From: Methylobacterium sp. 10
GTDB taxonomy: Bacteria; Pseudomonadota; Alphaproteobacteria; Rhizobiales; Beijerinckiaceae
Assembly: GCF_000519085.1 (NCBI RefSeq)
Contig: NZ_KI912577.1
Location: forward strand, 498,501-562,500
Direction: 5' to 3'
Length of the DNA stretch: 64,000 nucleotides
Part shown: piece by piece, positions 25,621-49,127 of the stretch
Layout: each line of letters starts with the position of its first letter
Position numbering within the stretch: the first letter of the stretch is position 1
Position numbers and translations under genes: made by a program
The notes under the pieces: model-generated
Databases searched by the model: none
Told to the model about the DNA's origin: nothing
The model's input: only the letters and a program-made list of their open reading frames with translations

Positions 25621-25621
25621 C

Positions 25622-25672
25622 ACGACATATCGTAACACACGTCACGAAAAACCGTATCCGACGATATTTCGT
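25622..25672. promoter_or_regulatory. Two candidate upstream activator sites for the bEBP
   Basis: Two 12-bp dyads of the form ACGA-N4-TCGT: ACGACATATCGT (25622-25633) and ACGATATTTCGT (25661-25672). They centre about 129 and 90 bp upstream of the predicted start of the cyanase operon, the normal range for enhancer sites. The first abuts the bEBP start codon, so binding there may also repress its own synthesis. Confidence 0.55.
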
Positions 25673-25730
25673 AGTTATATGATTTTGAGTAACCAAATGA
25701 TTCTATTGTGTTTTACACTGTTGCTACGGC

Positions 25731-25746
25731 TGGCACAGCGTTTGCC
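25731..25746 (+). promoter_or_regulatory. Sigma54 (-24/-12) promoter of the cyanate operon
   Basis: TGGCACAGCGTTTGCC matches the sigma54 consensus, with GG (25732-25733) and GC (25744-25745) exactly ten bases apart. Transcription should begin near 25757, giving a leader of about 23 nt before the ATG at 25780. It requires an activator such as the divergent PAS-bEBP. Confidence 0.82.
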
Positions 25747-25779
25747 ATGACAAGAGCGTTCCGCAGAAAGGTTCGCGAC

Positions 25780-27141: not shown

Positions 27142-27144
27142 GCC

Positions 27145-27984
27145 ATGAAGGCCTCCCTCTCGCTCCGCGCCGGCATCGTCTCCCTGGCCGTCCTCGCCGC
27201 CTTCCTGCTGCTCTGGCAGATCGCGGTGGGCGGGGTCGCCAAGACCGAAGCCATGGACCCGGAATACGCAGCCCTGATGGGTGCGAGCGCCACCACCGGC
27301 AAATCGGCGATGCCGGGCCCCCTCGACGTCGCCGCCACCGCCTGGAAGCACCTCAAGGACCCGTTCTACGACCGGGGGCCGAACGACAAGGGGCTGGGCA
27401 TCCAGCTCGCCTATTCCATCGGCCGGGTGGCGCTGGGCTACGGGCTCGCGGTGCTGGTGGCCATCCCCATCGGCTTCCTCATCGGCATGTCGCCGCTGAT
27501 GGGCCGGGCCCTCGACCCCTTCATCCAGCTCCTGAAGCCGGTCTCGCCGCTCGCCTGGATGCCGCTCGCCCTCTACACGATCAAGGATTCCAGCCTGTCG
27601 GCGATCTTCGTGATCTTCATCTGCTCGCTCTGGCCGATGCTGATCAACACCGCCTTCGGGGTCGCCGGAACGCGCAAGGAATGGCTCAACGTCGCCCGGA
27701 CCCTGGAGGTCGGGCCGATCCGCCGCGCCTTCACGGTGATCCTGCCGGCCGCCGCCCCGACGATCCTCACCGGCATGCGCATCTCCATCGGCATCGCCTG
27801 GCTCGTCATCGTGGCGGCCGAGATGCTCGTGGGCGGGACCGGCATCGGCTACTTCGTCTGGAACGAGTGGAACAACCTCTCGATCACCAATGTGATCGTC
27901 TCGATCCTGGTCATCGGCCTCGTGGGCATGATCCTCGACCAGTTGCTGGCGCGCGCGCAGCGTCTCGTCACCTTCCCCGAGTGA
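27145..27984 (+). CDS. ABC transporter permease, NrtB/SsuC type
   Basis: A 279-residue permease with about six membrane helices and the conserved EAA-type cytoplasmic loop (EWLNVARTLEVGPIRRAFTVILPAAAPTILTGMRISIGIAW), characteristic of the nitrate/sulfonate/taurine/cyanate importers. It starts 3 nt after the binding-protein stop and is followed by the ATPase 9 nt on, so the operon is tightly coupled. It forms the inner-membrane channel of the predicted cyanate importer. Confidence 0.9.
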   Translation: MKASLSLRAGIVSLAVLAAFLLLWQIAVGGVAKTEAMDPEYAALMGASATTGKSAMPGPLDVAATAWKHLKDPFYDRGPNDKGLGIQLAYSIGRVALGYGLAVLVAIPIGFLIGMSPLMGRALDPFIQLLKPVSPLAWMPLALYTIKDSSLSAIFVIFICSLWPMLINTAFGVAGTRKEWLNVARTLEVGPIRRAFTVILPAAAPTILTGMRISIGIAWLVIVAAEMLVGGTGIGYFVWNEWNNLSITNVIVSILVIGLVGMILDQLLARAQRLVTFPE

Positions 27985-27993
27985 GGTCGCGCC

Positions 27994-28956
27994 ATGAGCA
28001 AGCTCATCCCCTTCGCGCGGCGCTCCGCGAGTGCCGCTCCCGACCCCGCCGCCGGGACCAGCCGCATGTCGTACTCCGAAAAGTTCATCTCCATCGAGGG
28101 GATCGCCCGGCGCTATCCCGCCCCCGGCGGAAAGCAGAACACCGTGTTCGAGAACCTGTGGCTGCCCATGCGGCGGGGCGAGTTCGTCTGCATGATCGGC
28201 CATTCCGGCTGCGGCAAGACCACGGTGCTCAACATCCTGGCCGGGCTGGAGGCGCCGAGCGAGGGTGTCGTCATCGTAGACGGGCAGGCCATCGAGGGGA
28301 CGAGCCTCGACCGGGCGGTGATCTTCCAGGGCCATGCCCTGCTGCCCTGGCGCACGGTGCTCGGCAACGTCGCCTATGCGGTCTCCTCGCGCTGGCGCAA
28401 GGCGTCCCGCGCCGAAGTGGAGGAGCGTGCCCGCAAGGCCATCGCCACGGTTGGACTCGCCGGCTCCGAGCACAAGCGCCCCTCCGAACTCTCCGGCGGC
28501 ATGAAGCAGCGCGTCGGCATCGCGCGGGCGCTCGCCATCGAGCCCAAGATCCTGCTCATGGACGAGCCGTTCTCGGCGCTGGACGCGCTGACGCGGGGCA
28601 CCCTGCAGGATGAGGTGCGCCGCATCTGCACCGAGACCGGCCAGACCGTCTTCATGATCACCCACGATGTCGACGAGTCGATCTACCTCGCGGATCGCAT
28701 CGTGCTGATGACCAACGGCCCCGAGGCCAAGGTGGCCGAGATCGTCGAGAACCCTCTGCCCAAGCGGCGCGAGCGCGCCGAGCTCCATCACGCGCCGGGC
28801 TACTACGCCCTGCGCAACCACCTGATGGACTTCCTCGTCAGCCGCTCGAAGACCCTGCGGGACGCCATGCCCGCCGGCTACGACCAGCGCCACCCGCCGG
28901 TGGTGCGGCCGGGTTCCGACGGGCCGGAATCGATCGCCGTCCCCGCCGCCTCGTAG
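27994..28956 (+). CDS. ABC transporter ATP-binding protein, NrtD/CynD type
   Basis: A 320-residue ATPase. Walker A is GHSGCGKTT, the ABC signature LSGGMKQRV and Walker B ILLMDEPFSALDALTRG; the H-loop histidine is in MITHDVDESIYLADR. It drives the importer encoded by the two preceding genes. The C-terminal tail after about residue 260 is Pro/Gly-rich and not conserved. An internal ATG at MSYSEKF gives a shorter alternative start. Cyanase follows after 61 bp. Confidence 0.9.
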   Translation: MSKLIPFARRSASAAPDPAAGTSRMSYSEKFISIEGIARRYPAPGGKQNTVFENLWLPMRRGEFVCMIGHSGCGKTTVLNILAGLEAPSEGVVIVDGQAIEGTSLDRAVIFQGHALLPWRTVLGNVAYAVSSRWRKASRAEVEERARKAIATVGLAGSEHKRPSELSGGMKQRVGIARALAIEPKILLMDEPFSALDALTRGTLQDEVRRICTETGQTVFMITHDVDESIYLADRIVLMTNGPEAKVAEIVENPLPKRRERAELHHAPGYYALRNHLMDFLVSRSKTLRDAMPAGYDQRHPPVVRPGSDGPESIAVPAAS

Positions 28957-29017
28957 ATCCGCGCTTCGTAAATCCGCGCGCGCCCTCTCACCCACGTATT
29001 TCGAACGGAGACCTCAC

Positions 29018-29506
29018 ATGAAGCGCGAAGACCTCACGGAAAAGCTCCTCGACATCAAGCGCGAGAAGGGCTGGACCTGGAAGCATATCCAGGCGGAGAT
29101 CGGCGGCCTCTCGCCGATCCTCATCACCGCCGCCTGCATGGGACAGATGAAGTTGCCGAAAGCCCAGGCCAGGAAGGCGGCGGAGCTGTTCGGCCTGTCC
29201 GAATCCGAGGAGCGGATGCTGAACGAGGCGCCGTATCGCGGCTCGATCCCGCAGATGCCGCCCACCGACCCTCTCATCTACCGGTTCTACGAGTTGGTGA
29301 TGGTCTACGGCACCACTTGGAAAGAACTGATCCAGGAGGATTTCGGTGACGGCATCATGTCGGCCATCGATTTCAACATGACCATGGAACGGGAGCCGAA
29401 CAACAAGGGCGACCGGGTGAAAATGAACCTGTCCGGAAAGTTTTTGCCGTATAAATATTATGACAATGAAGAAGGAGTGCCGGATTACGGCTTCAAGGAG
29501 CCGTAA
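29018..29506 (+). CDS. cynS: Cyanate hydratase (cyanase)
   Basis: A 162-residue cyanase, which converts cyanate and bicarbonate to ammonia and CO2 and so both detoxifies cyanate and yields nitrogen. The N-terminal helix-turn-helix-like part (about 1-75) is followed by the catalytic segment. The conserved residues corresponding to E. coli Arg96, Glu99 and Ser122 are Arg89, Glu92 (YRFYELVMVYG) and Ser115 (DGIMSAIDF). Length and sequence are normal for the family. GGAGA lies 7 nt before the ATG. It is the last gene of the operon, before a strong terminator. Confidence 0.96.
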   Translation: MKREDLTEKLLDIKREKGWTWKHIQAEIGGLSPILITAACMGQMKLPKAQARKAAELFGLSESEERMLNEAPYRGSIPQMPPTDPLIYRFYELVMVYGTTWKELIQEDFGDGIMSAIDFNMTMEREPNNKGDRVKMNLSGKFLPYKYYDNEEGVPDYGFKEP

Positions 29507-32736: not shown

Positions 32737-33414
32737 TCAGGCGTGGTGAGCGCAGCCGCATCCTGCAGAATGGGCGCCGGTGGGCCAGCGCGAGTGACGG
32801 ATCAAGGCGCAGAAGTTGCCCTTGCGAAAGCCCGGTTCCTTGTCGGCGATGACGTCCGCCTTGACGTTGCCGAACGTTGTGTCCGGCTTGTGCCGGATGC
32901 CGTCGTAGAAGGCCTGGATGATGTCCTCCTTGAAGTCGGGCGTCCGCGGGAAAGCGGATACCACCGCCTCACGCTCGGCGTCGGAGTATTCTCCGTATGT
33001 CAGGCCGAGCACGTCCATCTCGACGCCGGCCGTGACGAGCGCCACCACCGGATGCATGTGGACCGGGATGCCGGGCGTCGTGTGCAGCGCGATGGCGGTC
33101 CAGACCGTATAGACGTCCGCCTCCGGCACCCCGTGCGCCTTCAGGAAGTCGCGGGCCGCGTTGGCGCCGTCGACCTCGAAGCGCTCCTCCGCGCTGCTGT
33201 GGTCTGGCATCAGGCCGACGTCGTGGAACATCGCGCCCGCATAGAGAAGCTCGCGGTCGAATGTCAGGCCGCGGCCGATGCCGGCCAGGGCACCGAATTG
33301 GTAGACCCGGCTCGAATGATGGAAGAGGAGCTCAGTTTCCGTGTCCCGGACGAACTCGGTGACGGCACGGGCCAGTTTGCTGTCCGGAACGGTGGCCAAG
33401 GTTGGAATGCTCAT
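32737..33414 (-). CDS. HD-domain protein, cyanamide hydratase-like
   Basis: A 225-residue HD-superfamily protein. Metal ligands are visible as His32/His33 in LLFHHSSRVYQFG, His64-Asp65 in AMFHDVGLMPDHS and a later Asp region. The pattern HSxRVYxFG...FHDxGLx resembles fungal/yeast Ddi2/Cah cyanamide hydratases as much as generic HD hydrolases, so the substrate is open. The C-terminus ends CGCAHHA. It is divergent from a GlxA-type regulator, and AAGGAAA precedes its ATG. Confidence 0.7.
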   Translation of the reverse strand: MSIPTLATVPDSKLARAVTEFVRDTETELLFHHSSRVYQFGALAGIGRGLTFDRELLYAGAMFHDVGLMPDHSSAEERFEVDGANAARDFLKAHGVPEADVYTVWTAIALHTTPGIPVHMHPVVALVTAGVEMDVLGLTYGEYSDAEREAVVSAFPRTPDFKEDIIQAFYDGIRHKPDTTFGNVKADVIADKEPGFRKGNFCALIRHSRWPTGAHSAGCGCAHHA

Positions 33415-33532
33415 GATCGGGTTTCCTTTGCGCTGATCCTCCCATCGGGCTACGAGACTCCATCATTGGCATCAATCGTCGTCTAACGGCGTTTTCTGCC
33501 ATCCTTCATGCATCCTCAGCCATGGAGCTCCG

Positions 33533-34498
33533 ATGGCGCCCCGACCCGTCGCCATCCTCGCCCTTCCCGGGGTCCAATTGCTCGATGTGGCCGGCCCGCT
33601 CGACGTCTTCGCCGAGGCAAACATCCAAAGCGGCGAGGACGTCTACGATCTCGCCGTCGTCGGAACGGGCGCCGATACGATCCTCACGTCGTCGGGACGG
33701 CGCCTCGTCGCGGATCTCGTGGCTCCCGGTGCCGATCCGATGTGCTTCGACACCCTGCTGGTCGCCGGAGCGCCGCGCATGCACGAGACGGACGTCGATG
33801 GCGGTCTCCTGGACTGGCTCGTGACGGTTGCGAGGCGCTGCCGGCGCTACGGCTCGGTCTGCAGCGGGGCGTTCCTGCTCGGTCAGGCCGGCCTGCTGGA
33901 CGGTCGGAGGGTGACGACGCATTGGGCCGTGGCAGAGGTGCTGGCGGCGCGCTACCCGGAGGCGTCGGTCGAGGCCGATGCGATCTGCCTCTTCGACGGT
34001 CCGCTGAGGACGGCGGCCGGGGTCACCGCGGGACTCGACCTCGCGCTGGCGCTCGTGGAGGAGGATCTCGGCCCGGAGATTGCGCGCCGGGTCGCCAGCC
34101 AACTCGTGATGTTCTTTCGACGCGGCGGTGGGCAGATGCAGTTCAGCCGCCGCGGGCTCAGTGCACCGGCCGGCCGCTCGGCCCTGCAGGAGGTGCAGCG
34201 CTGGGTGGCCGCGTATCCCGCGGAGGATCACGCGGTCGAGAAGCTCGCGGGGCGGGCGGGGATGAGTCCGCGCCATTTCGCGCGTCTGTTCAGGACCGAG
34301 ACGGGACTGACACCGGCCGCCTACGTGGAAAACGTCCGGATCGAGGCTGTTCGCCGCCTGTTGGAAACGGACGAGATCGTTCTCAAGCAGGTGGCCAGCG
34401 CTTGCGGGTTCCTCGACGCCGACACCCTGAGGCGGGCCTTCATGCGGCGCGTCGGGACGACGCCCGCGGAGTATCGGCGACGGCATCTGCATCGCTGA
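33533..34498 (+). CDS. GlxA-family regulator (DJ-1/PfpI + AraC HTH)
   Basis: A 321-residue regulator with an N-terminal DJ-1/PfpI-like amidotransferase domain (about 4-165; VAILALPGVQLLDVAGPLDVFAEAN, GSVCSGAFLLGQAGLLDGRRVTTHW) and a C-terminal AraC-type double helix-turn-helix (about 215-315; RAGMSPRHFARLFRTETGLTPAAYVENVRIEAVRRLLE). The nucleophile-elbow cysteine in SVCSGAF is kept. It is divergent from the HD-domain gene, which is its most likely target. GGAG lies just upstream of the ATG. Confidence 0.88.
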   Translation: MAPRPVAILALPGVQLLDVAGPLDVFAEANIQSGEDVYDLAVVGTGADTILTSSGRRLVADLVAPGADPMCFDTLLVAGAPRMHETDVDGGLLDWLVTVARRCRRYGSVCSGAFLLGQAGLLDGRRVTTHWAVAEVLAARYPEASVEADAICLFDGPLRTAAGVTAGLDLALALVEEDLGPEIARRVASQLVMFFRRGGGQMQFSRRGLSAPAGRSALQEVQRWVAAYPAEDHAVEKLAGRAGMSPRHFARLFRTETGLTPAAYVENVRIEAVRRLLETDEIVLKQVASACGFLDADTLRRAFMRRVGTTPAEYRRRHLHR

Positions 34499-38639: not shown

Positions 38640-39923
38640 TCAACTCGCCAACGGCAACGGCTCCCGGATGGACCGGCTCAAGCGCAGGTCGGCGATCCTC
38701 TCAGCCAAATGTTCCGTATCCCGCGCGATCCCGGAGAAGCGGCCGGAGCCCCAGGTGTGGAGCCAGGGCAGGCCGACGAAGTAAAGGCCGTCCACCGGTG
38801 TCACGCCGCGCGTGTGGATCGGCAGGCCGCGCCCGTCGAAGGCGGGGGCGTCGATGAATCTGAAATCGGCGCGGAAGCCCGTCGCCCAGATCACGCTGCC
38901 GATGCCGGCCGCCAGGCAGTCGAGGCTGGGCTCCTGTGGTCCCGGCGTCCAGAGCGGGGTGTAGTGCGCCTGTTCGGGAGCGGCGATCCCCGTGGCGGCG
39001 ATGTGCCTGTCGATGGCGCCCTGGATGCCGGTATAGACCGCATCGGCGTTGTCGAGGTTCCGGCGCAGATCGTCGGTGAAATGCAGCACCGGCCCGTCGA
39101 TGGATTCGAGGCGGCCATGGAGGCTCATGCCTTCCAGGGCGAAGCGGCGCAGGTCGATGTCACGGCCGCCATCTCGGCCGGTGAGGTAATGGTTGGCCTT
39201 GCGCCGCACATCCTCCTTGAGCGGGTGGTTTTCCACGGGGAGGTCGTACTGGCCCATCTCGGCGAGCCAATCGACGGCATCGCGCCCGCGATGAACGCGT
39301 GGGCAGCGCGGCGCCGAGCCCACCACGAGATGGACCTTTCGGCCGGACAGGTGAAGATCCTCGGCGATCTGACAGCCGGACTGGCCGGAGCCGACCACCA
39401 GCACCGCGCCGTCCGGCATGCCGCCGGCATTGCGGTAGGCGGAGGAATGGATCTGCCGGAGTCCCGCCGGCAGGCGCGCGGCGAAGGCCGGGATCGAGGG
39501 TACGTGATAGCCGCTGATCGCCATCACCACCTGATCGGCGGTGTGTTCGCCCCGGCTCGTCGCGACGGTGAAACCGCCCTCAGGTCGACGCCGGATCGCG
39601 GTCACCGCCACACCCTCGATCACGGGCGCCTCGATCATCCGGGCATAGGCCTCGATATAGCCGACGATTTCGTCCCTGGGCATGAAACCGTGCGGCTCCT
39701 CCCCCGGATAGGGGAAACCCGGCAGCTGGCACTGCCAGTTCGGTGTCACCAGGCAGAAGCTGTCCCAGCGCTGGGTCTTCCAGGCATGCGCGATGGTGTT
39801 CTTCTCGAACACGATGTGGTCGATGCCGCACCGGCGGAGCTGGTAGCTCATCGACAGGCCGGCCTGGCCGCCGCCGACGACGATGACGGAATGGTGCGAG
39901 GGGGGCGTCAGGGTCTGGTCCAT
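38640..39923 (-). CDS. MSMEG_0569-family flavin-dependent oxidoreductase (Nit1C)
   Basis: A 427-residue flavoprotein, the last gene of the Nit1C cluster (NitH in Pseudomonas naming). It has an N-terminal FAD fold HSVIVVGGGQAGLSMSYQLRRCGIDHIVFEKN and a second dinucleotide fold GAVLVVGSGQSGCQIAEDLHLSGRKVHLVVG, like flavin monooxygenases (FMO/Baeyer-Villiger type); VIWATGFRADF is the conserved later motif. It could hydroxylate a nitrogen-containing intermediate, but the reaction is not known. GGAAGGA lies 8 nt before the ATG. A 24-bp gap separates it from the preceding small gene. Confidence 0.88.
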   Translation of the reverse strand: MDQTLTPPSHHSVIVVGGGQAGLSMSYQLRRCGIDHIVFEKNTIAHAWKTQRWDSFCLVTPNWQCQLPGFPYPGEEPHGFMPRDEIVGYIEAYARMIEAPVIEGVAVTAIRRRPEGGFTVATSRGEHTADQVVMAISGYHVPSIPAFAARLPAGLRQIHSSAYRNAGGMPDGAVLVVGSGQSGCQIAEDLHLSGRKVHLVVGSAPRCPRVHRGRDAVDWLAEMGQYDLPVENHPLKEDVRRKANHYLTGRDGGRDIDLRRFALEGMSLHGRLESIDGPVLHFTDDLRRNLDNADAVYTGIQGAIDRHIAATGIAAPEQAHYTPLWTPGPQEPSLDCLAAGIGSVIWATGFRADFRFIDAPAFDGRGLPIHTRGVTPVDGLYFVGLPWLHTWGSGRFSGIARDTEHLAERIADLRLSRSIREPLPLAS

Positions 39924-39947: not shown

Positions 39948-40235
39948 CTATTCCTCGAAGGCTTCGACGGTGACGCGGGCGTCGGGCGTGGCGGAGAGCG
40001 CCGTGGCGCGCGCCTCGATCCGGGCGAGCTGTCCCAAAGCGAGGCTGCAGGGAAAGCCGTAGCGTGCCTCCACCCGCTGGCTGGCGATGGTCAGGGCCAC
40101 CCGGCTGCGGGCGACGAAGTCGGCGACGGCATAGGTCTCGCCGACCTCGAAATGCTCCTTGATCACGAGGGAGGGCGAGTAGCAGGCCTCGCGCCGGCCA
40201 TCGGGCCAGCGCACGTGGACATGCATTTCAGGCAT
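39948..40235 (-). CDS. MSMEG_0570-family nitrogen starvation response protein (Nit1C)
   Basis: A 95-residue small protein specific to Nit1C clusters. It begins MPEMHVHVRWPDGRREACYSPSLVIKEHFEVGETY, a pattern found only in this family, and has no known fold or activity. The start is set by this conserved N-terminus; it overlaps the glycosyltransferase gene by 8 nt, consistent with translational coupling. Its strict co-occurrence with the nitrilase and radical SAM genes suggests a structural or carrier role in the pathway. Confidence 0.85.
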   Translation of the reverse strand: MPEMHVHVRWPDGRREACYSPSLVIKEHFEVGETYAVADFVARSRVALTIASQRVEARYGFPCSLALGQLARIEARATALSATPDARVTVEAFEE

Positions 40236-41415
40236 CCGACATCTCCTGCTTGCGGGCGGCGAGGGACGCGTAGGCCGGCCGGTGCTTCTCGGCGCAGGTG
40301 CGCCAGGAATGCGCCTCGGCGACGGTGAGGCCCGCATTGATCAACCGCTCGATGGCGGAAGGCCGGAGGGCCGCACGCATGCCGTGGAGGACCGATCCCT
40401 CGTCCTCCGGGTCGACGAACACCGTGTCCGCGGCCGTGAGATACTCGGTGAAGGGAGGCCGGTCGGAGACGATGGTCGGCGTGCCGCTTGCCATCGCTTC
40501 GAGCACGCAGAGGCCAAAGCCCTCCCTCAGCGAGGGAAACACCAGGGCGTCGGCGAGGCGGTAGAGAGCCGGCATCGCGGCCTGGGGCACCGGCCCCGTC
40601 TGCACCACCGGGCGGCCAGGGCCGCTATCGAGGCCGTTGCGGTCGAGGGCCGCGCGGCAGCGGGCCTGGTAGCCGGAATGGTCGAGGAGCGAGGCGCCGC
40701 CGACGACGAGGAGTTGAGCATCCGGCCGTTCTTCCCTCAGCCGGGCGAATGCCTGGATGATGGCGAGGCTGTTCTTGCGCTCCTCGAACCCGCCCACACT
40801 GAGGAGGATCGGCCCCCCGCCTAGGCCCCACTCGCTCCGCAATGCGGCGTCCCCCTCTCCCGGCTCGGGTCCGAAGGCGCCGGTATCGACTCCGTTGCCG
40901 ACATTGAGGGCGGTAAGCCCGTAATCCCGCGTGAGCGCGCCCTGCCACAGGCTGCTGACGCAAAGCAGTGCGGTGGCGTCGAAGATCGCCCGGTCGTGCC
41001 AGTAGGCGAGTTGCGGATCGGAGAAGAGGTCGACGTGGTGGACCGTGCGCACGAAGCCGGGGATCAGGCGGCGGCGGGTGAGGGTGGCGAGCGCGTTGCC
41101 GCTGATCGCGTCCTGGGCATGGAAGACGTCGTAATCGCAGGCCGCCGGCGATGCGAAATGGCGCAGGTAATCCTCGATGCGGGTGCGCACGAGATCCACC
41201 GTCGAACCCGAGATTGGCCGCGCCGCCACCGAGATCACCGGACAGGCCGTCTTGCGGAAGAAGCCGCTGCCGGACGGGTCCGGCGCATGGACCACGGCCC
41301 GGTGACCGAGGGCGGCGAGCGCTTCGCCCAGCGCCAGGGCGTGGACCACCCCGCCGCGCGGATGGGTGGAATGCGCGAGGATCGCGATGCGGAGAGGCCC
41401 GGTCATTCTCGTCAT
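40228..41415 (-). CDS. MSMEG_0565-family glycosyltransferase (Nit1C)
   Basis: A 395-residue GT4-type glycosyltransferase. It has LAHSTHPRGGVVHALALGEALAALGHRAVVHAP at the N-terminus, SVGGFEERKNSLAIIQAFARL, and the donor-site FPSLREGFGLCVLEAMASGTPTIVSDRPPFTEYL. A glycosyltransferase is an accessory member of some Nit1C clusters and implies that a sugar may be attached to the product. The ATG at 41415 overlaps the preceding stop in an ATGA; a second ATG lies 9 nt later. Donor and acceptor are unknown. Confidence 0.87.
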   Translation of the reverse strand: MTRMTGPLRIAILAHSTHPRGGVVHALALGEALAALGHRAVVHAPDPSGSGFFRKTACPVISVAARPISGSTVDLVRTRIEDYLRHFASPAACDYDVFHAQDAISGNALATLTRRRLIPGFVRTVHHVDLFSDPQLAYWHDRAIFDATALLCVSSLWQGALTRDYGLTALNVGNGVDTGAFGPEPGEGDAALRSEWGLGGGPILLSVGGFEERKNSLAIIQAFARLREERPDAQLLVVGGASLLDHSGYQARCRAALDRNGLDSGPGRPVVQTGPVPQAAMPALYRLADALVFPSLREGFGLCVLEAMASGTPTIVSDRPPFTEYLTAADTVFVDPEDEGSVLHGMRAALRPSAIERLINAGLTVAEAHSWRTCAEKHRPAYASLAARKQEMSDA

Positions 41416-42386
41416 GTCCTCTGCCCGCAGCCGATGAGGGGGCTCGCGGCGAAGTCCCAGACCGCGGCCTCCTCCGTCCCGTCGGACACCGTCGCGATGC
41501 GGCCCGCATCGACGCCGCCGATGACGGAGGCGGCGATCCCGCGATCCGTGAAGCGCCGGAGGACCGGCTCGACATTCGCGGGGGGCACGCCGAGGAGGTA
41601 GCCGAAGCTCGGGAAGGCGGTGAGCCAGCGGGCAAGGTCGACGCCCTCCGGCCGAGGGATGCGGTCGAGGCGGATCGCAGCGCCGACGCAGGAGCATTCG
41701 AGCAGCATCAGGGCCGTGCCGACGAGGCCGGCCATGCTGATGTCCTTGGCGGCCTTGGCGAGGCCGTCCTCGGCGATGCCGGCGAGGATCGCGATGTCGC
41801 CGCGCAGGCGCTCCGCCGGGGCGCCGGTGGCCGCGTCCCAATAGGGGTGCGGATCGCGAAAGCCGCCGCGCAGGTCGATCGCCGCGACGAGGCTGTCGCC
41901 GGGCATGGCGTCGAAGCTGGTGAGGAGGCTCTTTGCCCGGCCGAGGATGGCGACGGCGAGATGCTCGCCCGCGTTGCGGGTGTTGCTATGCCCGCCGACC
42001 ACCGGCACGCCGAAGGTCTCGGCCCCCGCCCTCAGGCCGGCCAGGACCGGATCGGCATGGGCCTGATCGCGGCTCCACAGGGCATCGACCACCGCGATGG
42101 GGCGTCCGCCCATGGCGGCGATGTCGCTGACATTGACCATCACCCCGCAGAACCCGGCGAAATATGGATCGGCGGCCACGAACTCGTCCATGAACCCCTC
42201 GATGGCCAGGAGCAGGTAGCCGTCGCCGTCGGGGATGGCAGCGCAATCGTCGCCGAGCGGCACGGCGACCGCGCGCCCGCCGAGGCCGAGCCGGCCGATC
42301 ACGGCGTCGATGTCCCGCTTGTGGGCGAGGCCGCGCCCGTGGCGGATGCCGTGTGCGATCTCGGCGAGGGAGGGCGGCAGGGTCAT
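41412..42386 (-). CDS. sll0787-family AIR synthase-like protein (Nit1C)
   Basis: A 324-residue protein of the PurM/SelD/ThiL ATP-binding superfamily (NitF in Pseudomonas naming). It shows VPLGDDCAAIPDGDGYLLLAIEGF, MVNVSDIAAMGGRP and GGHSNTRNAGEHLAVAILGRAK, the glycine-rich and acidic segments that bind ATP-Mg in AIR synthase-like enzymes. These enzymes activate oxygen or amide groups by phosphorylation. The true substrate in Nit1C is unknown. It begins 2 bp after the GNAT gene and overlaps the glycosyltransferase by 4 nt. Confidence 0.88.
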   Translation of the reverse strand: MTLPPSLAEIAHGIRHGRGLAHKRDIDAVIGRLGLGGRAVAVPLGDDCAAIPDGDGYLLLAIEGFMDEFVAADPYFAGFCGVMVNVSDIAAMGGRPIAVVDALWSRDQAHADPVLAGLRAGAETFGVPVVGGHSNTRNAGEHLAVAILGRAKSLLTSFDAMPGDSLVAAIDLRGGFRDPHPYWDAATGAPAERLRGDIAILAGIAEDGLAKAAKDISMAGLVGTALMLLECSCVGAAIRLDRIPRPEGVDLARWLTAFPSFGYLLGVPPANVEPVLRRFTDRGIAASVIGGVDAGRIATVSDGTEEAAVWDFAASPLIGCGQRT

Positions 42387-42388
42387 GG

Positions 42389-42934
42389 TCAGGCCGCCCG
42401 CCGGAGGAGCGTGACGAGGCCGCGCTCAGGGTCGGTCATGGGCGGGTAATACGTGAGATCGGCCCGCATCAGGTGATGGGCGCGGCCGTGCAGGTCGACC
42501 TCAGTGAGGCTGGTCCAGTTCAGCGCCTGGAACAGGGACACGTTGGCGCTCTGCACATGGGCGAGGAAACGGGTGCAGCCCCGCGCATGCGCCGAGGCCA
42601 CCGCCACATGGATCAGGCCGGCGCCGAGCGCGCCGACCCGGCGGTAATCGCGGGCCACCGCGAGGCGCGAGCCCCACCATTCGCCGGGCCGGTCGGCGGT
42701 CTCGTGGATGCGCACGGTGCCGACGACGGCATCCGGCGCACCGCCGAGCGTCGAGAGGGCGCAGATCGGGATCGCCACAGCATCAATCGCATCGCGATCG
42801 TCCCCCTCGAAGATCGCCTGCTCGGCGCAGAAGACCTGCCGGCGCAGGGACGCCGTGCCGGCCCGCTCCCAGGGCGCGGTGGCGAACTTGATCCGGAAAT
42901 GGCTCGATCGGTAGGCGGGGACGGGCTCGAACAT
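42389..42934 (-). CDS. MSMEG_0567/sll0786-family GNAT N-acetyltransferase (Nit1C)
   Basis: A 181-residue GNAT-type acyltransferase (NitE). It has RQVFCAEQAIFEGDDRDAIDAVA near the N-terminus and the acetyl-CoA-binding area around RLAVARDYRRVGALGAGLIHVAVASAHARGC. Compared with typical GNATs it carries a short extra N-terminal strand conserved in this family. It presumably acylates an amine made in the pathway. It starts 8 bp after the radical SAM stop and is followed 2 bp later by the AIR synthase-like gene. Confidence 0.87.
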   Translation of the reverse strand: MFEPVPAYRSSHFRIKFATAPWERAGTASLRRQVFCAEQAIFEGDDRDAIDAVAIPICALSTLGGAPDAVVGTVRIHETADRPGEWWGSRLAVARDYRRVGALGAGLIHVAVASAHARGCTRFLAHVQSANVSLFQALNWTSLTEVDLHGRAHHLMRADLTYYPPMTDPERGLVTLLRRAA

Positions 42935-42942
42935 CGTCCCGC

Positions 42943-44100
42943 TCACCGCTCGTAGGTGGAGAGGGCCGAACAGGCGCCGCAACGTCCGCAGCCGGCCTTG
43001 ATGTCGGTGGAGCGCAAACCCGCCCCCGCCAGCATCGCCGCGAGCGGCTGGAGCACGGAATGCATGAAATCCGGCGAGGGGGCGGGATGGTCCTCCAGCG
43101 GCGTGCCGGAAATCGGCACGAACGGCACCACGAACGGGTAGACCCCCATGCCGATCAGGCGCTCGGACATGGCGAGGATAGCCTGCGCCGTGTCGCCGAG
43201 ACCGGCGAGGATGTAGGTCGAGACCTGACCCTTGCCGAAGATCGGCACGGCGGCGGCGAACGCCTGGAAGTAGCGCTCCAACGGCACGCTCGCCTTGCCG
43301 GGCATGATCGCGGCGCGCACCTCCGGCGTCACCGCCTCGAGATGCAGGCCGAGCGCATCGACGCCCGACGCCTTCAGCCGGGCGAACCAGCGGTCGTCGT
43401 CCGGCGGCTCGCATTGGGCCTGGATCGGCAGATCCACCGCCGCCTTCACCGCGAAGGCGCTCTCGCAGAGCACGGCCGCCCCCCGGTCGGTGGCGTTGGG
43501 GGTGCCCGTGGTCATCACCATGTGCCTGACGCCGTCGAGGAGAACGGCGGCGCGCGCCACCTCGGCGAGTTGCTGCGGCGTCTTGTGGGCGACGGTGCGA
43601 CCAGCCGCGAGCGACTGACCGATGGAGCAAAATTGGCAGGTCTTGGTCCGGCTCTGGTAGCGGATGCAGGTCTGCAGCACCGTGGTCGCGAGCACGTCGC
43701 GCCCGTGCAGCACGGCGATCTTCGAATAGGGCACCCCGTCGAGGGTCTGGAGCCCGTAGAACCTAGGCTTGCCCGGAAACGTCACCCGGCCGATCACCGT
43801 GCCGTCATGCTCGATCACGCTCGACCCGTCGGCATCCGGCCGGCGCACGAGGTAGGGAGAATCGAAGGCGCCCGCCGTATGGACCGGCACCATCACCGTG
43901 CGGCCGGCGATGGTCATCGCCTTGTGGTCGGAAGGCCCCGCCCCGCCCCGGCGGCTGGCGACCCCGGCGCGGGTGTCAGCCAGCCTGACTCCGTAGGATT
44001 GGAGCGCGTTGATCAGGTGCTCCGTCGGCATCCCCTGGTAGACTGGGGCGTGCGCCGGCGACGAAGCGGCCGGGGAGGTCAGCAGCGGAGAGTCGCTCAT
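42943..44100 (-). CDS. MSMEG_0568-family radical SAM protein (Nit1C)
   Basis: A 385-residue radical SAM protein (NitD). The likely cluster-binding cysteines are Cys145, Cys155 and Cys158 ([14 protein letters not shown]), a CX9CX2C spacing instead of the usual CX3CX2C. A second CX2CX2C triplet (Cys371, 374, 377) near the C-terminus could hold an auxiliary Fe-S cluster. GGAG lies about 8 nt before ATG 44100, so the gene overlaps the nitrilase 3' end by 125 nt; a shorter start at 44031 lacks a good ribosome site. The reaction is unknown. Confidence 0.87.
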
Positions 44101-45082
44101 GGTCGGTGCTCCGGGGATGCGGGATGTCCGATGCGGGCGTGGTCACCACCGTGCGGGCGGGACGCGCGTCGTGGTTGAGGCTGAGGAGTTCGGGGCGGGC
44201 GTAATGGCCGACCGAATCCATCATCCGCTTGCGCTTGGTGACCAGCGCCATGTCCATGTCGGCGACGAGGATGCCCTCGCCCTCCGTCATCGGCGGGACG
44301 AGGTGCTTGCCTTCCGGCGACACGATGGCGGTGCAATTGCCGCCGCGCAGGGCCCCGCGCATCCGCTCATCGGGAGAGATTGCGGCGACCTGCGCCTCGG
44401 TGAGCCAGCCGGTGGCGTTCACGACGAAGGCGGCCGCCTCCAACGCGTGGTGGCGGATCGTCACCTCCATCTGGTCGGCGAAGATCTGACCCACCATCGA
44501 GCCCGGGAACTGGGCCGCGTGGATCTCTTCGTGCTGGGCCATCAGGGCGTAGCGGGCCAGCGGATTGTAATGCTCCCAGCATGCCAGGGCGCCGACCCGG
44601 CCCACCGCCGTCTCGACCACCGTGAGCCCGGCGCCGTCGCCCTGCCCCCAGATCATACGCTCGTGGTAGGTCGGGGTGATCTTGCGGCGCTTGAGCAGGA
44701 GCGTGCCGTCGGCATCGAAGATCAGCTGCGCGTTGTAGAGCGAGCCGTGATCGCGCTCGTTGATGCCGAGCACGATCACCGCGCCATGCTTGCGCGCGGC
44801 GGCCGAGACCGCCTGCGTCACCGGCCCCGGCACCGTCACCGCGCCCTCGTAGAGCCGCAGGTGCTCCGGCCCCTGCGCCGCCGGCGGGGCGATGAAGGAG
44901 AAGTACGGGTAGTACGGCACGAAGGTCTCGGGGAACACGATGAACCGAGCGCCCTTGCCCGCCGCCTCCTCGGTCGCGGCGAGCACTCTCTCCAGCGTCC
45001 CGCCCGGCCGCTCCAGATCGGGTGAGATCTGGACGGCGGCGGCGCGCACGATGCGTGACTCGGACAAGCGTGACTCGGACAT
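43976..45082 (-). CDS. nitC: Nit6803-family nitrilase (Nit1C)
   Basis: A 368-residue nitrilase of the group typified by Synechocystis Nit6803, which hydrolyses nitriles to carboxylate and ammonia. The catalytic triad is intact: Glu52 ([13 protein letters not shown]), Lys134 ([15 protein letters not shown]) and Cys168 ([11 protein letters not shown]). The C-terminal 30 or so residues are encoded in the long overlap with the radical SAM gene and are not conserved. In Pseudomonas, Nit1C is needed for cyanide assimilation; the physiological nitrile is not established. AAGGAA lies 8 nt before the ATG. Confidence 0.93.
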
Positions 45083-45194: not shown

Positions 45195-45677
45195 TCACAC
45201 CGTCCAAGTGTCGATCACCACCGCGTTGTCGCGCTTGTGCAGGAGGACGAGGTCGAGGACGTCGGTGGGGGCGATGGGGCGGATGCCCTCGATCAGCGAG
45301 GGCTCGCCGTGGCCGTAGAGGGCCTGGAGGGCGAAACGGCAGGCATAGACCTTGCCGCCCTCGGAGAGGAACTTCACGATCTGGTTGTTCATGTTCATAT
45401 GGCCGGGGAAGGCCTCGTCGCCGAGGGTCGGGAAGCCGCGCTGAACGCCGAGCGTCACGCCCGGCCCGTAGAGCAGGACTGAGGTCTCGAAGCCCTTGCG
45501 AAGCAGACGGGTCGCCTGGAGCAGGTTCACGAAGCCGATGGACCCCTCGAAGGCCACGGTATGGAAGGTGACGAGCGCCTTCTGGCCCGGCTCGGCCTTC
45601 ACGTCCTCGAAGACCTTCTCTTCGTAATCGACGAAGTAATCGCCCTTCTTATGGTGCTCGGCACTGACGGCTGGCAT
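45195..45677 (-). CDS. MSMEG_0572/sll0783-family nitrogen starvation response protein (Nit1C)
   Basis: A 160-residue protein, first gene of the Nit1C operon (NitB in Pseudomonas naming). It starts [63 protein letters not shown] and resembles DsrE/YchN-like small alpha/beta proteins. The Synechocystis homologue Sll0783 is induced by nitrogen starvation and is required for normal PHB accumulation. ATG 45677 is preferred over an upstream GTG because GGGAG lies 8 nt before it. A sigma54 promoter is centred about 73 bp upstream. Confidence 0.88.
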
Positions 45678-45742: not shown

Positions 45743-45758
45743 GGCAATCCGTGTGCCA
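45743..45758 (-). promoter_or_regulatory. Sigma54 (-24/-12) promoter of the Nit1C operon
   Basis: Read on the minus strand, 45758 to 45743 is TGGCACACGGATTGCC. GG (45757-45756) and GC (45745-45744) are ten bases apart, as sigma54 requires, and 12 of 16 positions match the cyanate-operon promoter at 25731-25746. Transcription would begin near 45732, about 55 nt before the first Nit1C ATG. Confidence 0.8.
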
Positions 45759-45812
45759 GCGTCGAAGATAGTGCAATCCGGCCAATTCCACGCTGGGGAA
45801 TACATGCAATCG

Positions 45813-45942
45813 TGCAGTCAATATGCAGCGCGGCGCGTCGCCTCCCTCGCTCGCGATGGCGCCCAAAAACCGAGCATTCGATGCATAGATACTCAACATA
45901 TGCATCCGGATACTAGTATTTTATTTGACTGTATTGACTGCA
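45813..45942. promoter_or_regulatory. ATTGACT-type boxes, probable MocR operators
   Basis: Three copies of ATTGACT or a one-base variant: AGTCAAT (45816-45822, inverted), TTTGACT (45924-45930) and ATTGACT (45933-45939). The outer two lie in perfect 11-bp complementary arms (TGCAGTCAATA / TATTGACTGCA). MocR proteins usually bind direct repeats, and a second direct pair lies at 47629-47645. Confidence 0.55.
45880..45906. promoter_or_regulatory. Inverted repeat, possible enhancer site for Nit1C promoter
   Basis: GATGCATA (45880-45887) and its exact complement TATGCATC (45899-45906) are separated by 11 bp. The dyad centre is about 161 bp upstream of the predicted sigma54 start, a plausible enhancer position. 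It does not resemble the dyads before the cyanate operon. Confidence 0.45.
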
Positions 45943-46005
45943 AATCGCCATGCAGCGTCGGGCCGCGATGCGGCGGCACGACGATTGCTATCCATACAAT
46001 TCGAC

Positions 46006-47496
46006 ATGGAACGCACATTGACTGGTTCTGCGATGATCACCGGACGAGGATCCAGGAAGCCGGGCCGTCGCCCCGGGCCATCGTGGACAAGCCCATCTCC
46101 GCCGCCGGACGGCTGGACGCCGGACCTCGGACGCTGGGGCAAGCCGCATTACCTCGCCATCGCCGAGGCCATCGCCGACGATATCCGTACCGGACGGCTC
46201 GCCGTCGGCGAACGCCTGCCGCCCCAGCGGGTTCTCGCCGAGCGGCTGGAGCTGAACTTCACCACCGTGGCGCGCGGCTACGTGGAGGCGCAGCGTCGTG
46301 GCCTCGTGGAGGCGAGGGTCGGCCAGGGGACTTTCGTGGCCGGTCCCGCGATGCCGATGCCGCAGCCCAGGACCGTGGCCCCGCGCCGGCACGGCCCTGT
46401 CGACTTCACCATGAACCTGCCGCCGGAACCCGACGATCCCGCTCTGCTCGCGCGGATGCAGGGCGGCCTCGCGGCGGTGTCCAACGATCTGCCGAACCTG
46501 CTGCGCTACCAGGGCTTCGGCGGCACGGCCGAGGACAAGGACGCAGCGATCGAGTGGCTTCGGCGCCGCGGCCTCGAAGCGTCGCGCGACCGCCTGCTGA
46601 TCTGCCCCGGCGCCCATGCCGCCCTCGGCGCCGTGATGAGCCTAGTGGCGCAACCAGGGGACACGATCTGCTGCGAGACGCTCACCTATCCCGGCGCGCG
46701 GGCGCTCGCAGCCCATCTCGGCCTGCGCCTCGTCGGGGTGCCCATGGATGGAGAAGGCATCGACGCCGCGGGCTTTGCGGCCCTCTGTACGCGGCATGCG
46801 CCGAAGGCCCTCTACCTCAACCCGACCCTGCAGAACCCGACCACGATCACCATCTCGGCGGCGCGCCGCGAGGCCATCGTCACCGTGGCGCGGCGCTACA
46901 ACGTGGCGATCATCGAGGACGACGCCTACGGTTTCGTGCCGGTGAAGCCGGCAACCAGCTTCTACCGGCTGGCGCCGGAGATTACCTATCACGTGGCCGG
47001 CCTCGCCAAATGCCTCGGGGCGGGGCTGCGGCTCGCCTACATGCTCGCGCCCAGCGCACGGGCGGCGCTCCAGCTGACGGCGTCCCTGCGCGCCTCCACG
47101 GTGATGGCCTCGCCGATCACCACGGCCCTCGCCACGCGCTGGATCGACGACGGCACCGCCGAGGCGATCCTCGCCTTCGTCCGCTCGGAATCCCGGGCGC
47201 GGCAGGCCATCGCCGCCGGGATGCTGGGGTGGCACGGCGTGACCGCCGACCCCGCCGGCTTCCATCTCTGGCTATCCCTGCCCGAGGGCTGGACCCGCTC
47301 GGCCTTCGCCAGCCAAGCCCGCGCAGCGGGGATCGGCGCCGTGGCCAGCGACGCCTTCCTCGCCGCCGGCCAAGCCCCGGAAGCCGTGCGGATCTGCCTC
47401 GGCGGCCTCGCCAGCCGCGCGGAGATCGCGCAATCGCTGGAGATCCTCGCCCATGCCCTGTCGCACTCGCCCGCGCTGGCTTCGGCCTATATCTGA
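46006..47496 (+). CDS. MocR-type regulator (GntR HTH + PLP aminotransferase domain)
   Basis: A 496-residue MocR/PdxR-subfamily regulator. A GntR winged helix (about 45-115; YLAIAEAIADDIRTGRLAVGERLPPQRVLAERLELNFTTVARGYVEAQRRGLV) is fused to a fold-type I aminotransferase domain. The PLP-binding lysine is Lys335 in AGLAKCLGAGLRLAY, although the usual Ser before it is Ala. Such proteins sense amino compounds through PLP. It is divergent from Nit1C and is its probable regulator. A TTG at 45925 opens the frame earlier but lies inside a candidate operator; ATG 46006 or 46036 is likelier. Confidence 0.85.
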   Translation: MERTLTGSAMITGRGSRKPGRRPGPSWTSPSPPPDGWTPDLGRWGKPHYLAIAEAIADDIRTGRLAVGERLPPQRVLAERLELNFTTVARGYVEAQRRGLVEARVGQGTFVAGPAMPMPQPRTVAPRRHGPVDFTMNLPPEPDDPALLARMQGGLAAVSNDLPNLLRYQGFGGTAEDKDAAIEWLRRRGLEASRDRLLICPGAHAALGAVMSLVAQPGDTICCETLTYPGARALAAHLGLRLVGVPMDGEGIDAAGFAALCTRHAPKALYLNPTLQNPTTITISAARREAIVTVARRYNVAIIEDDAYGFVPVKPATSFYRLAPEITYHVAGLAKCLGAGLRLAYMLAPSARAALQLTASLRASTVMASPITTALATRWIDDGTAEAILAFVRSESRARQAIAAGMLGWHGVTADPAGFHLWLSLPEGWTRSAFASQARAAGIGAVASDAFLAAGQAPEAVRICLGGLASRAEIAQSLEILAHALSHSPALASAYI

Positions 47497-47541
47497 CGAG
47501 GCGAAGTACCTCGTCGCCGGCATGCGGCAATAGCGTCAAGA

Positions 47542-47555
47542 TGTCTCGCGAGACA
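47542..47555. promoter_or_regulatory. Perfect 14-bp palindrome after the MocR gene
   Basis: TGTCTCGCGAGACA is a complete palindrome 46 bp after the MocR stop and 221 bp before the GntA-like ATG. It could be a regulator site for the downstream gene; no other copy was noticed. Confidence 0.4.
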
Positions 47556-47628
47556 CACAGCCTGAATATCGATGGATCGTATGAATCAGTACTGATCGAT
47601 CTAATCCGATGGTACCGGCGATCCTGGC

Positions 47629-47645
47629 ATTGACTTTCATTGACT
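47629..47645. promoter_or_regulatory. ATTGACT direct repeat upstream of GntA-like gene
   Basis: Two exact ATTGACT copies (47629-47635 and 47639-47645) spaced 10 bp apart lie 132 bp before the GntA-like start. The same heptamer forms the repeats in the Nit1C/MocR control region, where the spacing is 9 bp. This suggests that the same MocR protein binds both. Confidence 0.55.
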
Positions 47646-47776
47646 CTAGCAAAGCTGTGGATAGCGACGTCCTGTCCCTGCACGGCGCGGAACCTCCCAG
47701 GCGGCGATCGGTTTGCCATGTCCTCCTCAGGGCCAGCCTCACGAGCCAGCCTCGACCGACGACGATCCGGAGCCTC

Positions 47777-48499
47777 ATGCTGTTTCCCACCGACGATGCT
47801 ACCCATCCCCTGGCGCTCAAATTCCATGCCTTCATCAAGGATCAACCCTTCCCTTGCGTCGGCGCGAAATCGGCCCTCGCCAAGGGGCAGCTGAAGGTCC
47901 TGGTCGCGCGCGACGTCGCCTCGGGCTGGGACGACACGCGGATCTATCCGGCGCTCCTCGCCTTCATCTATCGCTACAGGGCGAACCCGAAGCTGTTCCA
48001 GAGCTTCGCCGTGGTGTTCGAGGACGCTTCGCCCCTCTCCGAAGAACGGTTCGAGGGGCACCTGTGGGACCGGGTACAGTCGCTGTCCGACAAGGACGCC
48101 TTCCTCGGCCAGCGTTACGACAAGCGGGTGCAGGCCGACCCGGACGACCCGCATTTCGCCCTGTCCTTCGGTGGTGAGGCATTCTTCCTCGTCGGGATGC
48201 ATCCCGGCGCGAGCCGGCCGGCCCGCCGCTTCTCGCATCCCGTCCTCGTCTTCAATGTACGTGCGCAGTTCGAGCAGTTGCGCGAGGAGGGCCGCTACGA
48301 GGGGCTTCGCTCGGCGATCCTCGCCCGCGACGAGGCGCTGGCCGGATCGATCAACCCCATGCTGGCCCGGCACGGCGATGCCTCCGAGGCCCGCCAGTAC
48401 AGCGGTCGCGCCGTTGGCGGCGACTGGGTCTGCCCGTTCCAGGGTCGAGCCAAGGGCGACAATGACCGCCTCGCCGAGGATGGCCGCGATGCCGCCTGA
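47777..48499 (+). CDS. YqcI/YcgG (GntA-like) heme-dependent N-oxygenase family protein
   Basis: A 240-residue member of the YqcI/YcgG family. The characterised relative, GntA of guanitoxin biosynthesis, is a heme-dependent N-hydroxylase. Conserved stretches are PFPCVGAKSALAKGQLKVLVARD, AFFLVGMHPGASRPARRFSHPVLVFN and the GGDWVCPF end. The start is set by the family N-terminus MLFP and GGAG 4 nt upstream; the frame is open further back without similarity. Its last 11 nt overlap the DUF1989 gene, so the two work together. Its substrate is unknown. Confidence 0.8.
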   Translation: MLFPTDDATHPLALKFHAFIKDQPFPCVGAKSALAKGQLKVLVARDVASGWDDTRIYPALLAFIYRYRANPKLFQSFAVVFEDASPLSEERFEGHLWDRVQSLSDKDAFLGQRYDKRVQADPDDPHFALSFGGEAFFLVGMHPGASRPARRFSHPVLVFNVRAQFEQLREEGRYEGLRSAILARDEALAGSINPMLARHGDASEARQYSGRAVGGDWVCPFQGRAKGDNDRLAEDGRDAA

Positions 48500-49127
48500 C
48501 ACCGCCCTCCCCCCGATCCACCGCCACGAGATCGCGCCCCGGAGCGGCGTCGCCTTCGAGCTTGCCAAGGGCGAGCGGCTCACCGTGATCGATCCGAACG
48601 GCGAGCAGGTTGCCGACCTTCTGGCCTTTTCCGCCGCTGACCGCGACGAGGTGATTTCGTCGGGCCGGACCCTCGATTACGCCAGCCGTATCTACCTGAC
48701 GACGGGCGATCCGATTTATTCGAACCGCTCCAACGTCCTCCTGCGCATCGTCGAGGATACGGTGGGGCGGCACGATTTCCTCCTCACCCCGTGCTCGGCC
48801 GATACGTTCCGCATCATCTATGGCGACGCGCATCCGCACCGGGGTTGCTTCGGCAACCTCGCCGCCGCACTCGCGCCCTATGGAATCGAGCCGGACCGTA
48901 TCCCGGTGGCCTTCAACGTGTTCATGAACGTCGTGGTGAACGGAGAGACCGGGGAGTTGAAGGTCGAGCCGCCGCTCAGCCGGGCCGGCGATCACGTGAC
49001 GTTCGAGGCCGAGACCGACCTCATCATCGGGCTCACCGCCTGCTCTGCCCTGCAATCGAACAATAATGCCTTCAAGCCGATCCACTACGAGATCCGACCC
49101 GCAGGTGCAGCGCCGCAATCGCCCTGA
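48489..49127 (+). CDS. DUF1989 (urea carboxylase-associated) family protein
   Basis: A 212-residue DUF1989 protein. The family core is seen in FELAKGERLTVIDPNGEQVADLLAF, SSGRTLDYASRIYLTTGDPIYSNRSNVLLRIVEDTVGRHDFLLTPCSADTF and a GCFGNLAAAL segment with a conserved cysteine. Members CgdA/CgdB form carboxyguanidine deiminase in guanidine degradation, but no urea or guanidine carboxylase gene is in the window. GAGG lies 9 nt before the chosen ATG. It is coupled to the GntA-like gene, pointing to a two-step reaction on a nitrogen-rich compound. Confidence 0.83.
   Translation: MPPDTALPPIHRHEIAPRSGVAFELAKGERLTVIDPNGEQVADLLAFSAADRDEVISSGRTLDYASRIYLTTGDPIYSNRSNVLLRIVEDTVGRHDFLLTPCSADTFRIIYGDAHPHRGCFGNLAAALAPYGIEPDRIPVAFNVFMNVVVNGETGELKVEPPLSRAGDHVTFEAETDLIIGLTACSALQSNNNAFKPIHYEIRPAGAAPQSP

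Follow-up and report, generated by a model that had tools for sequence, protein, structure and literature searches.

The gap between the Nit1C gene cluster and a divergent mocR gene in Methylobacterium sp. 10 is likely, judging from its sequence and that of related loci, a two-way control region in which predicted MocR sites stand together with a predicted sigma-54 promoter of Nit1C. The neighbouring GntA-like/DUF1989 operon appears to be excluded from it. Coordinates below refer to the whole 64-kb stretch of DNA that was analysed (the window). A sequence-only reading had tied Nit1C, the MocR regulator and the GntA-like/DUF1989 operon into one regulon by means of shared ATTGACT boxes. The first of these ties was borne out: the boxes in the Nit1C-MocR gap belong to a conserved, MocR-linked predicted element of Nit1C, and probably of mocR too.

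Results

The window contains a full Nit1C cluster on the minus strand, with all eight family models (TIGR04042 to TIGR04049) scoring above their cut-offs. In Pseudomonas, Nit1C clusters have been linked to the use of cyanide and nitriles as nitrogen sources for growth, according to excerpts of PMC11049912 and PMC5333837. The first gene belongs to the MSMEG_0572/Sll0783 family (nitB-like; 45195..45677, start codon at 45677; TIGR04044, 283 bits against a cut-off of 109.85). It is followed by genes for a Nit6803-family nitrilase (nitC-like; 43976..45082; TIGR04048, 550.8 against 502.6), an MSMEG_0568-family radical SAM protein (42943..44100; TIGR04043, 602.4 against 303.7) and an MSMEG_0567/Sll0786-family N-acetyltransferase (42389..42901; TIGR04045, 224.8 against 68.45, residues 244-398 of the frame 42389-43630). 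Next come an sll0787-family AIR synthase-like protein (41412..42386; TIGR04049, 455.5 against 321.3), an MSMEG_0565-family glycosyltransferase (40228..41391; TIGR04047, 460.9 against 259.85, residues 151-525 of the frame 40228-41841), an MSMEG_0570-family protein (39948..40337; TIGR04042, 128.1 against 79.85) and, at the end of the cluster, an MSMEG_0569-family flavoprotein (38640..39923; TIGR04046, 645.4 against 498.35). Coordinates for the N-acetyltransferase and the glycosyltransferase begin where the family match begins and end at the stop codon.

Divergent from Nit1C lies mocR (46006..47496, plus strand; start at 46006 or 46033), followed by a GntA-like gene of the YqcI/YcgG family (47780..48499, plus; NF041366, 241 against 145; PF08892) and a DUF1989 gene (48489..49127, plus; PF09347). 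The MocR protein combines an N-terminal GntR winged helix-turn-helix domain (PF00392, 50.9 bits, cut-off 27) with a C-terminal aminotransferase-like domain (PF00155, 71.4 bits), and a Pfam scan found no AAA+ domain in it. The PLP lysine is present in 116 of 116 aligned MocR relatives. Among the best 80 of 365 matches, the nearest named relatives are from Methylobacterium and include M. bullatum, whose MocR is 93% identical.

Elsewhere in the window, in the region 23704-29506, nitrate-type ABC transporter genes and a gene for cyanase (29018-29506; TIGR00673 score above its cut-off) stand divergent to a gene for a PAS-AAA+ sigma-54 activator (23704-25638, minus). Aligned over its whole length, this activator shows 53% identity to the regulator next to a Nit1C cluster that lacks MocR (L226). 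Genes for cyanate and nitrile nitrogen, the cyanase gene and Nit1C, thus lie within about 22 kb of each other. Between the two (region 32737-34498), a DJ-1/AraC-type regulator gene is divergent from one for an HD-domain protein with a weak resemblance to cyanamide hydratases (43 bits; the cut-off of that family is 109.85).

WTTGACT boxes were found in the window sequence at every position named earlier. The Nit1C-MocR gap holds a direct pair, TTTGACT (45924-45930, plus) and ATTGACT (45933-45939, plus), and an inverted ATTGACT (45816-45822, minus); an exact ATTGACT pair (47629-47635 and 47639-47645, plus) lies upstream of the GntA-like gene. An additional, previously unlisted ATTGACT is present at 46017-46023 (plus). 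The window contains eight WTTGACT against 3.59 expected, a count reached in 2 of 100 shuffles. Across the genome (4.98 Mb) the word occurs 99 times, with six occurrences in the 1.83 kb that spans these boxes, and the reversed word occurs 137 times. The close direct pair WTTGACT-N1-6-TTGACT was seen genome-wide only at these two places (reversed-pattern control, 0) and in none of 20,000 shuffles of either gap. A fairer, post-hoc test accepted any close exact 7-mer pair whose word also stands in the Nit1C-MocR gap; when the MocR-YcgG gap was shuffled 20,000 times, such a pair arose in 229 cases, about 1%. Outside the window, the same genome has three TTTGACT copies at exact 18-bp steps (G000:C1:3641577-3641619).

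The heptamer that had been proposed as the motif is thus present in the Nit1C-MocR gap, but only as fragments of a longer half-site of about ATTGNMTGNA; ATTGACT as the whole motif was discarded because the conserved word is longer. Often arranged as a 12-bp tandem between Nit1C and the divergent MocR gene, the half-site recurs among Alpha- and Betaproteobacteria as well as on two plasmids of Gammaproteobacteria. Loci drawn from the best 80 of 365 gave 73 Nit1C/divergent-MocR gaps, of which 58, the window's own (L001) included, were kept after dropping L058 (more than 900 bases) and near-duplicates; L003 is the same locus as L228, and L004 the same as L227. The most enriched 8-mer was ATTGACTG (31 of the 58 non-redundant gaps, shuffled mean 0.67), with ATTGAATG (35 gaps) and ATTGTATG (23 gaps) as its variants, the 58 gaps being interrelated so that these counts are not independent events.

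A 12-bp matrix was trained on 51 gaps, with the seven Methylobacterium gaps left out, and scanned over both strands of the window (about 128,000 positions). The top six scores all fell inside the Nit1C-MocR gap. Rank 1 went to ATTGACTGCAAA on the mocR side (45933..45944, plus; score 15.9), which starts 9 bp after the TTTGACTGTATT site (45924..45935, plus; 12.6, rank 4); the latter persists, with small changes, in the clade alignment. ATTGTATGGATA, just before the mocR start (45989..46000, minus; 14.8, rank 2), is nearly unchanged in four aligned relatives. The inverted ATTGACT is contained in ATTGACTGCACG (45811..45822, minus; 12.5, rank 5), whose tandem partner 12 bp on is ATTGCATGTATT (45799..45810, minus; 14.7, rank 3). 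ATTGACTGGTTC, at the mocR start (46017..46028, plus; 12.1), ranked sixth and a weaker third half-site (45775..45786, minus; 9.1) tenth. In the four aligned relatives the sites of the Nit1C gap are for the most part conserved; between lineages, half-sites vary in number and orientation. Same-strand steps were most commonly 12 bp (38 pairs), then 11 bp (16). The tandem pattern ATTGNMTGNA-N0-4-TTGNMTGNA matches this genome once, at 45801-45822 of the window (minus). It has one match each in 20 of 149 family genomes, against one match in all for the reversed control, and nine of the 20 sit, by their coordinates, at a Nit1C-MocR gap.

The gap also carries TGGCAC-N5-TTGC (45744..45758, minus), which the sequence-only reading had overlooked along with the full half-site and which is a predicted sigma-54 (-24/-12) promoter of Nit1C by its minus-strand reading and its conservation among gaps. 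The box TGGCAY-N5-WTGC was aimed at Nit1C in 53 of the 58 gaps, being missing from the other five, and at mocR in none (shuffled mean 0.46, maximum 3). The stricter form TGGCAY-N5-TTGC was present in 44 (shuffled mean 0.19, maximum 3). Conserved and oriented in this manner, the box has the sequence features of a sigma-54 promoter. The box and three or more half-sites are present in each of the 30 Methylobacterium Nit1C loci fetched (58 genomes carry the gene). A single rpoN gene was found in the genome of Methylobacterium sp. 10, along with ten matches to sigma-54 activators, seven of them strong, with one (23704-25638) in the window.

Half-sites favour particular distances from the box. Of 118 half-sites that share the orientation of Nit1C and precede the -24 box by at most 160 bp, 39 are 49-52 bp and 36 are 60-64 bp away from it, and a distance of 28 bp recurs in eight cases. 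In the window the distances are 64 bp for ATTGACTGCACG, 52 bp for ATTGCATGTATT and 28 bp for the weaker third half-site. This geometry is not universal, as the tandem of the Klebsiella and Pantoea plasmids (L221, L222) precedes the -24 box by 186 bp. The Klebsiella module, with Nit1C, MocR, tandem half-sites and a sigma-54 box, is found on a clinical Klebsiella pneumoniae plasmid (L221 5234-14165), and of 515 plasmid records that contain the first Nit1C gene, 374 come from Klebsiella. In the laboratory strain Methylorubrum extorquens AM1, the megaplasmid has half-sites and the sigma-54 box at Nit1C, together with a 68%-identical MocR (L220).

Where the half-sites occur indicates that MocR very probably binds them. 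They were absent from all four Nit1C operons that have a NitA-like PAS regulator and no MocR (L205, L217, L218 and L219; 350 bp upstream), and at least one was present in 21 of 23 MocR-linked Nit1C operons, with none above threshold in L198 and L213. The chance of such a split is C(6,4)/C(27,4), about 0.0009, if the loci are independent; some of them may be of the same species as training loci, and NitA-like regulators were identified from their position and from 49-53% identity with the sigma-54 activator of the window, over the full length only for L226. Half-sites are likewise found beside MocR paralogues that lack Nit1C. At 36 mocR loci unlinked to Nit1C, none used in training and some near-duplicates of each other, the average number of half-sites per 330 bp was 1.97 upstream of mocR and 3.17 downstream of it, compared with 0.04 for coding sequence. 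A 42%-identical MocR accompanies the 12-bp tandem on the Klebsiella and Pantoea plasmids.

At eight inspected loci of the unlinked kind the half-sites precede a similar downstream gene, and the four proteins tested were DUF983. Five loci (L018, L025, L041, L054 and L061) have two opposite-strand half-sites that start 4 bp apart, downstream of mocR and before a DUF983-like gene. Such paralogue/DUF983 loci possibly form another MocR circuit, one whose operator is palindromic.

Within the genus, Nit1C was present in 58 of 110 genomes, MocR in 57 of 111 and YcgG in 96 of 111. Nit1C is present in every one of the 57 genomes with MocR. Of the 58 Nit1C genomes only one, G165, is without MocR, and its contig breaks off 482 bp beyond the first gene of the cluster. 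Two genomes record losses. G193 has lost Nit1C, and beside its YcgG-DUF1989 pair only the C-terminal part of mocR (residues 390-487) and a stub of the flavoprotein gene are left; G233 has a flavoprotein stub and no mocR at its YcgG-DUF1989 site, with MocR and Nit1C elsewhere in the genome. Together with the co-occurrence, these losses indicate that MocR goes with Nit1C. A single clade of Nit1C-linked MocR proteins was rejected, since the tree needs 10 label changes over 116 proteins, a figure that may be too high because some labels rest on short loci.

The nearest NCBIfam model to the window's MocR is EhuR, with 437.8 against a cut-off of 480, so that the protein falls outside the curated family; the seven relatives tested (four Nit1C-linked, three DUF983-linked) also scored below the cut-off. 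The PLP lysine is common to this MocR and to the EnuR/EhuR/EutR regulators of ectoine catabolism, a MocR subfamily, and the EnuR/EutR consensus operator ATTGTnnnnnnACAAT, given in an excerpt of PMC8739950, has the same ATTG core as the window half-sites. The ectoine-gene linkage of EhuR and EnuR is not seen here, where the immediate neighbours are Nit1C, YcgG and DUF1989. The layout differs as well: according to PMC8739950 the EnuR operator is a palindrome and its promoter of the sigma-70 type, whereas tandem direct repeats and a sigma-54-type box are found at Nit1C-MocR. In their direct and mixed repeats the window sites resemble the operators of GabR, TauR and PdxR, which have such repeats one or several helix turns apart according to part of a MocR survey (PMC5320631).

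MocR could instead bind these sites as a plain, EnuR-like repressor of Nit1C. This variant overlaps with our best explanation and is quite possible, if somewhat less than even in its chances. EhuR is the closest named model, EnuR is described as a repressor in the same excerpt of PMC8739950, and the weaker half-site lies only 28 bp from the -24 box. However, the main tandem lies 50-64 bp upstream, clear of the core promoter, whereas the predicted EnuR operators overlap theirs.

Control of the GntA-like/DUF1989 operon by MocR through the 47629/47639 pair, the second tie of the regulon proposed earlier, is improbable. It would fit the rarity of the close pair, one of two in the genome and rare in the shuffles even by the post-hoc count, the adjacency of mocR and the GntA-like gene, and a weak association of MocR with YcgG in the genus (55/2/41/13, p 0.002). 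However, YcgG-DUF1989 occupies this site in seven other Methylobacterium genomes (L114-L119, L130), with mocR still adjacent in five, and none of the seven has the pair. In these relatives the 320 bp upstream of YcgG hold no TTGACT on either strand, and the same was found for 29 loci other than the window's; none was found in the whole mocR-YcgG gap of five relatives checked. Examined in orthologous loci, the heptamers are therefore largely kept in the Nit1C-MocR gap and absent upstream of the GntA-like gene. The GYA end of the half-site is also missing from the pair, whose matrix scores of 6.5 and 2.4 rank only 26 and 160. By this poor fit and non-conservation, the pair was rejected as the same kind of operator as in the Nit1C gap. 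YcgG is commoner in the genus than MocR, and YcgG-DUF1989 survives mocR loss in G193 and G233.

We read the GntA-like/DUF1989 genes as probably neighbours that stand outside the MocR circuit; given the rarity of the pair in this genome, a strain-specific MocR site is possible. Upstream of YcgG (within 47640-47720; L114-L119), the words CTGTGGAY and GGAACCTC recur in every member of an alignment of seven Methylobacterium sequences that includes the window, and they may be part of the real control element of the YcgG operon.

It is slightly less probable again that another protein, such as an AAA+ activator, binds the half-sites and that MocR is a mere neighbour. The half-sites do lie upstream of a sigma-54 box, the usual position for an activator, and no further strong shared activator site was found in the 58 gaps with half-sites and promoter masked; candidates for one were rejected, as mainly Shine-Dalgarno-like and weak words were left. 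Against this stand the missing half-sites at NitA-like Nit1C operons, their presence beside MocR paralogues without Nit1C, and the ATTG core of the EnuR/EutR operator, likewise that of a MocR-type protein. NitA, the Pseudomonas regulator of Nit1C, is described in part of PMC11049912 as a divergent, Fis-family sigma-54-dependent regulator. It has in common with the window a divergent regulator of the same operon type and a sigma-54 theme, and differs in class from MocR, for which the Pfam scan gave no AAA+ domain. At L205, L217, L218 and L219, whose regulators are NitA-like, there is also no TGGC-N7-TTGC box in the 350 bp upstream. The window's own NitA-like activator was rejected as an obligatory partner of MocR, since its occurrence across the genus shows no significant association with that of Nit1C (36 shared, Fisher p 0.13).

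By far the least probable reading takes the boxes as ordinary sigma-70 -35 elements, whose consensus TTGACA resembles TTGACT, or as chance A+T-rich words; for the Nit1C-MocR gap it is contradicted by the longer conserved word, its two orientations, 12-bp steps and recurrence across bacterial classes, and for the 47629/47639 pair it is still possible.

Discussion

In the favoured mechanism, a head-to-tail MocR dimer would occupy the tandem, which precedes the -24 box by about 50-64 bp, and an amino ligand derived from nitriles or cyanide would react with the PLP of MocR and alter its grip on DNA. MocR would then help, or less likely block, a separate AAA+ activator, most simply NtrC. Under nitrogen shortage this activator would fire the sigma-54 polymerase and turn Nit1C on. 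A separate activator is invoked because sigma-54 transcription needs one and MocR has, by the Pfam scan, no AAA+ domain. The position of the tandem, upstream of the core promoter, is a mild argument for co-activation. Sites around the mocR start suggest that MocR may also regulate its own gene. These proposed steps build on the motif, its geometry, the promoter box and the linkage of half-sites to the MocR lineage, all of which are seen directly in the sequences.

Cyanide adds to the Schiff base of PLP. A bolder and rather doubtful version makes the PLP-bearing MocR a direct sensor of cyanide or aminonitriles and a DNA-bending co-activator that would alter its hold on the 12-bp tandem and so license the sigma-54 promoter. 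If true, this would make MocR a partner of sigma-54 and PLP the basis of a cyanide sensor.

Literal-term searches of the open PMC literature, covering titles, abstract openings and selected passages, found no prior description of Nit1C control outside the NitA type and no described Nit1C-MocR operator. They likewise returned no paper combining MocR, sigma-54, promoter and direct repeat, and we found no description of the sigma-54 box/half-site arrangement in the Nit1C-MocR gap. In the MocR survey PMC5320631, the string 'nitril' is absent from the main text.

The conserved control region predicts regulator, promoter class and operator layout for Nit1C in many species. It makes two questions testable: how a MocR protein with no visible ATPase domain works at a sigma-54 promoter, and which molecule signals nitriles or cyanide to the cell.
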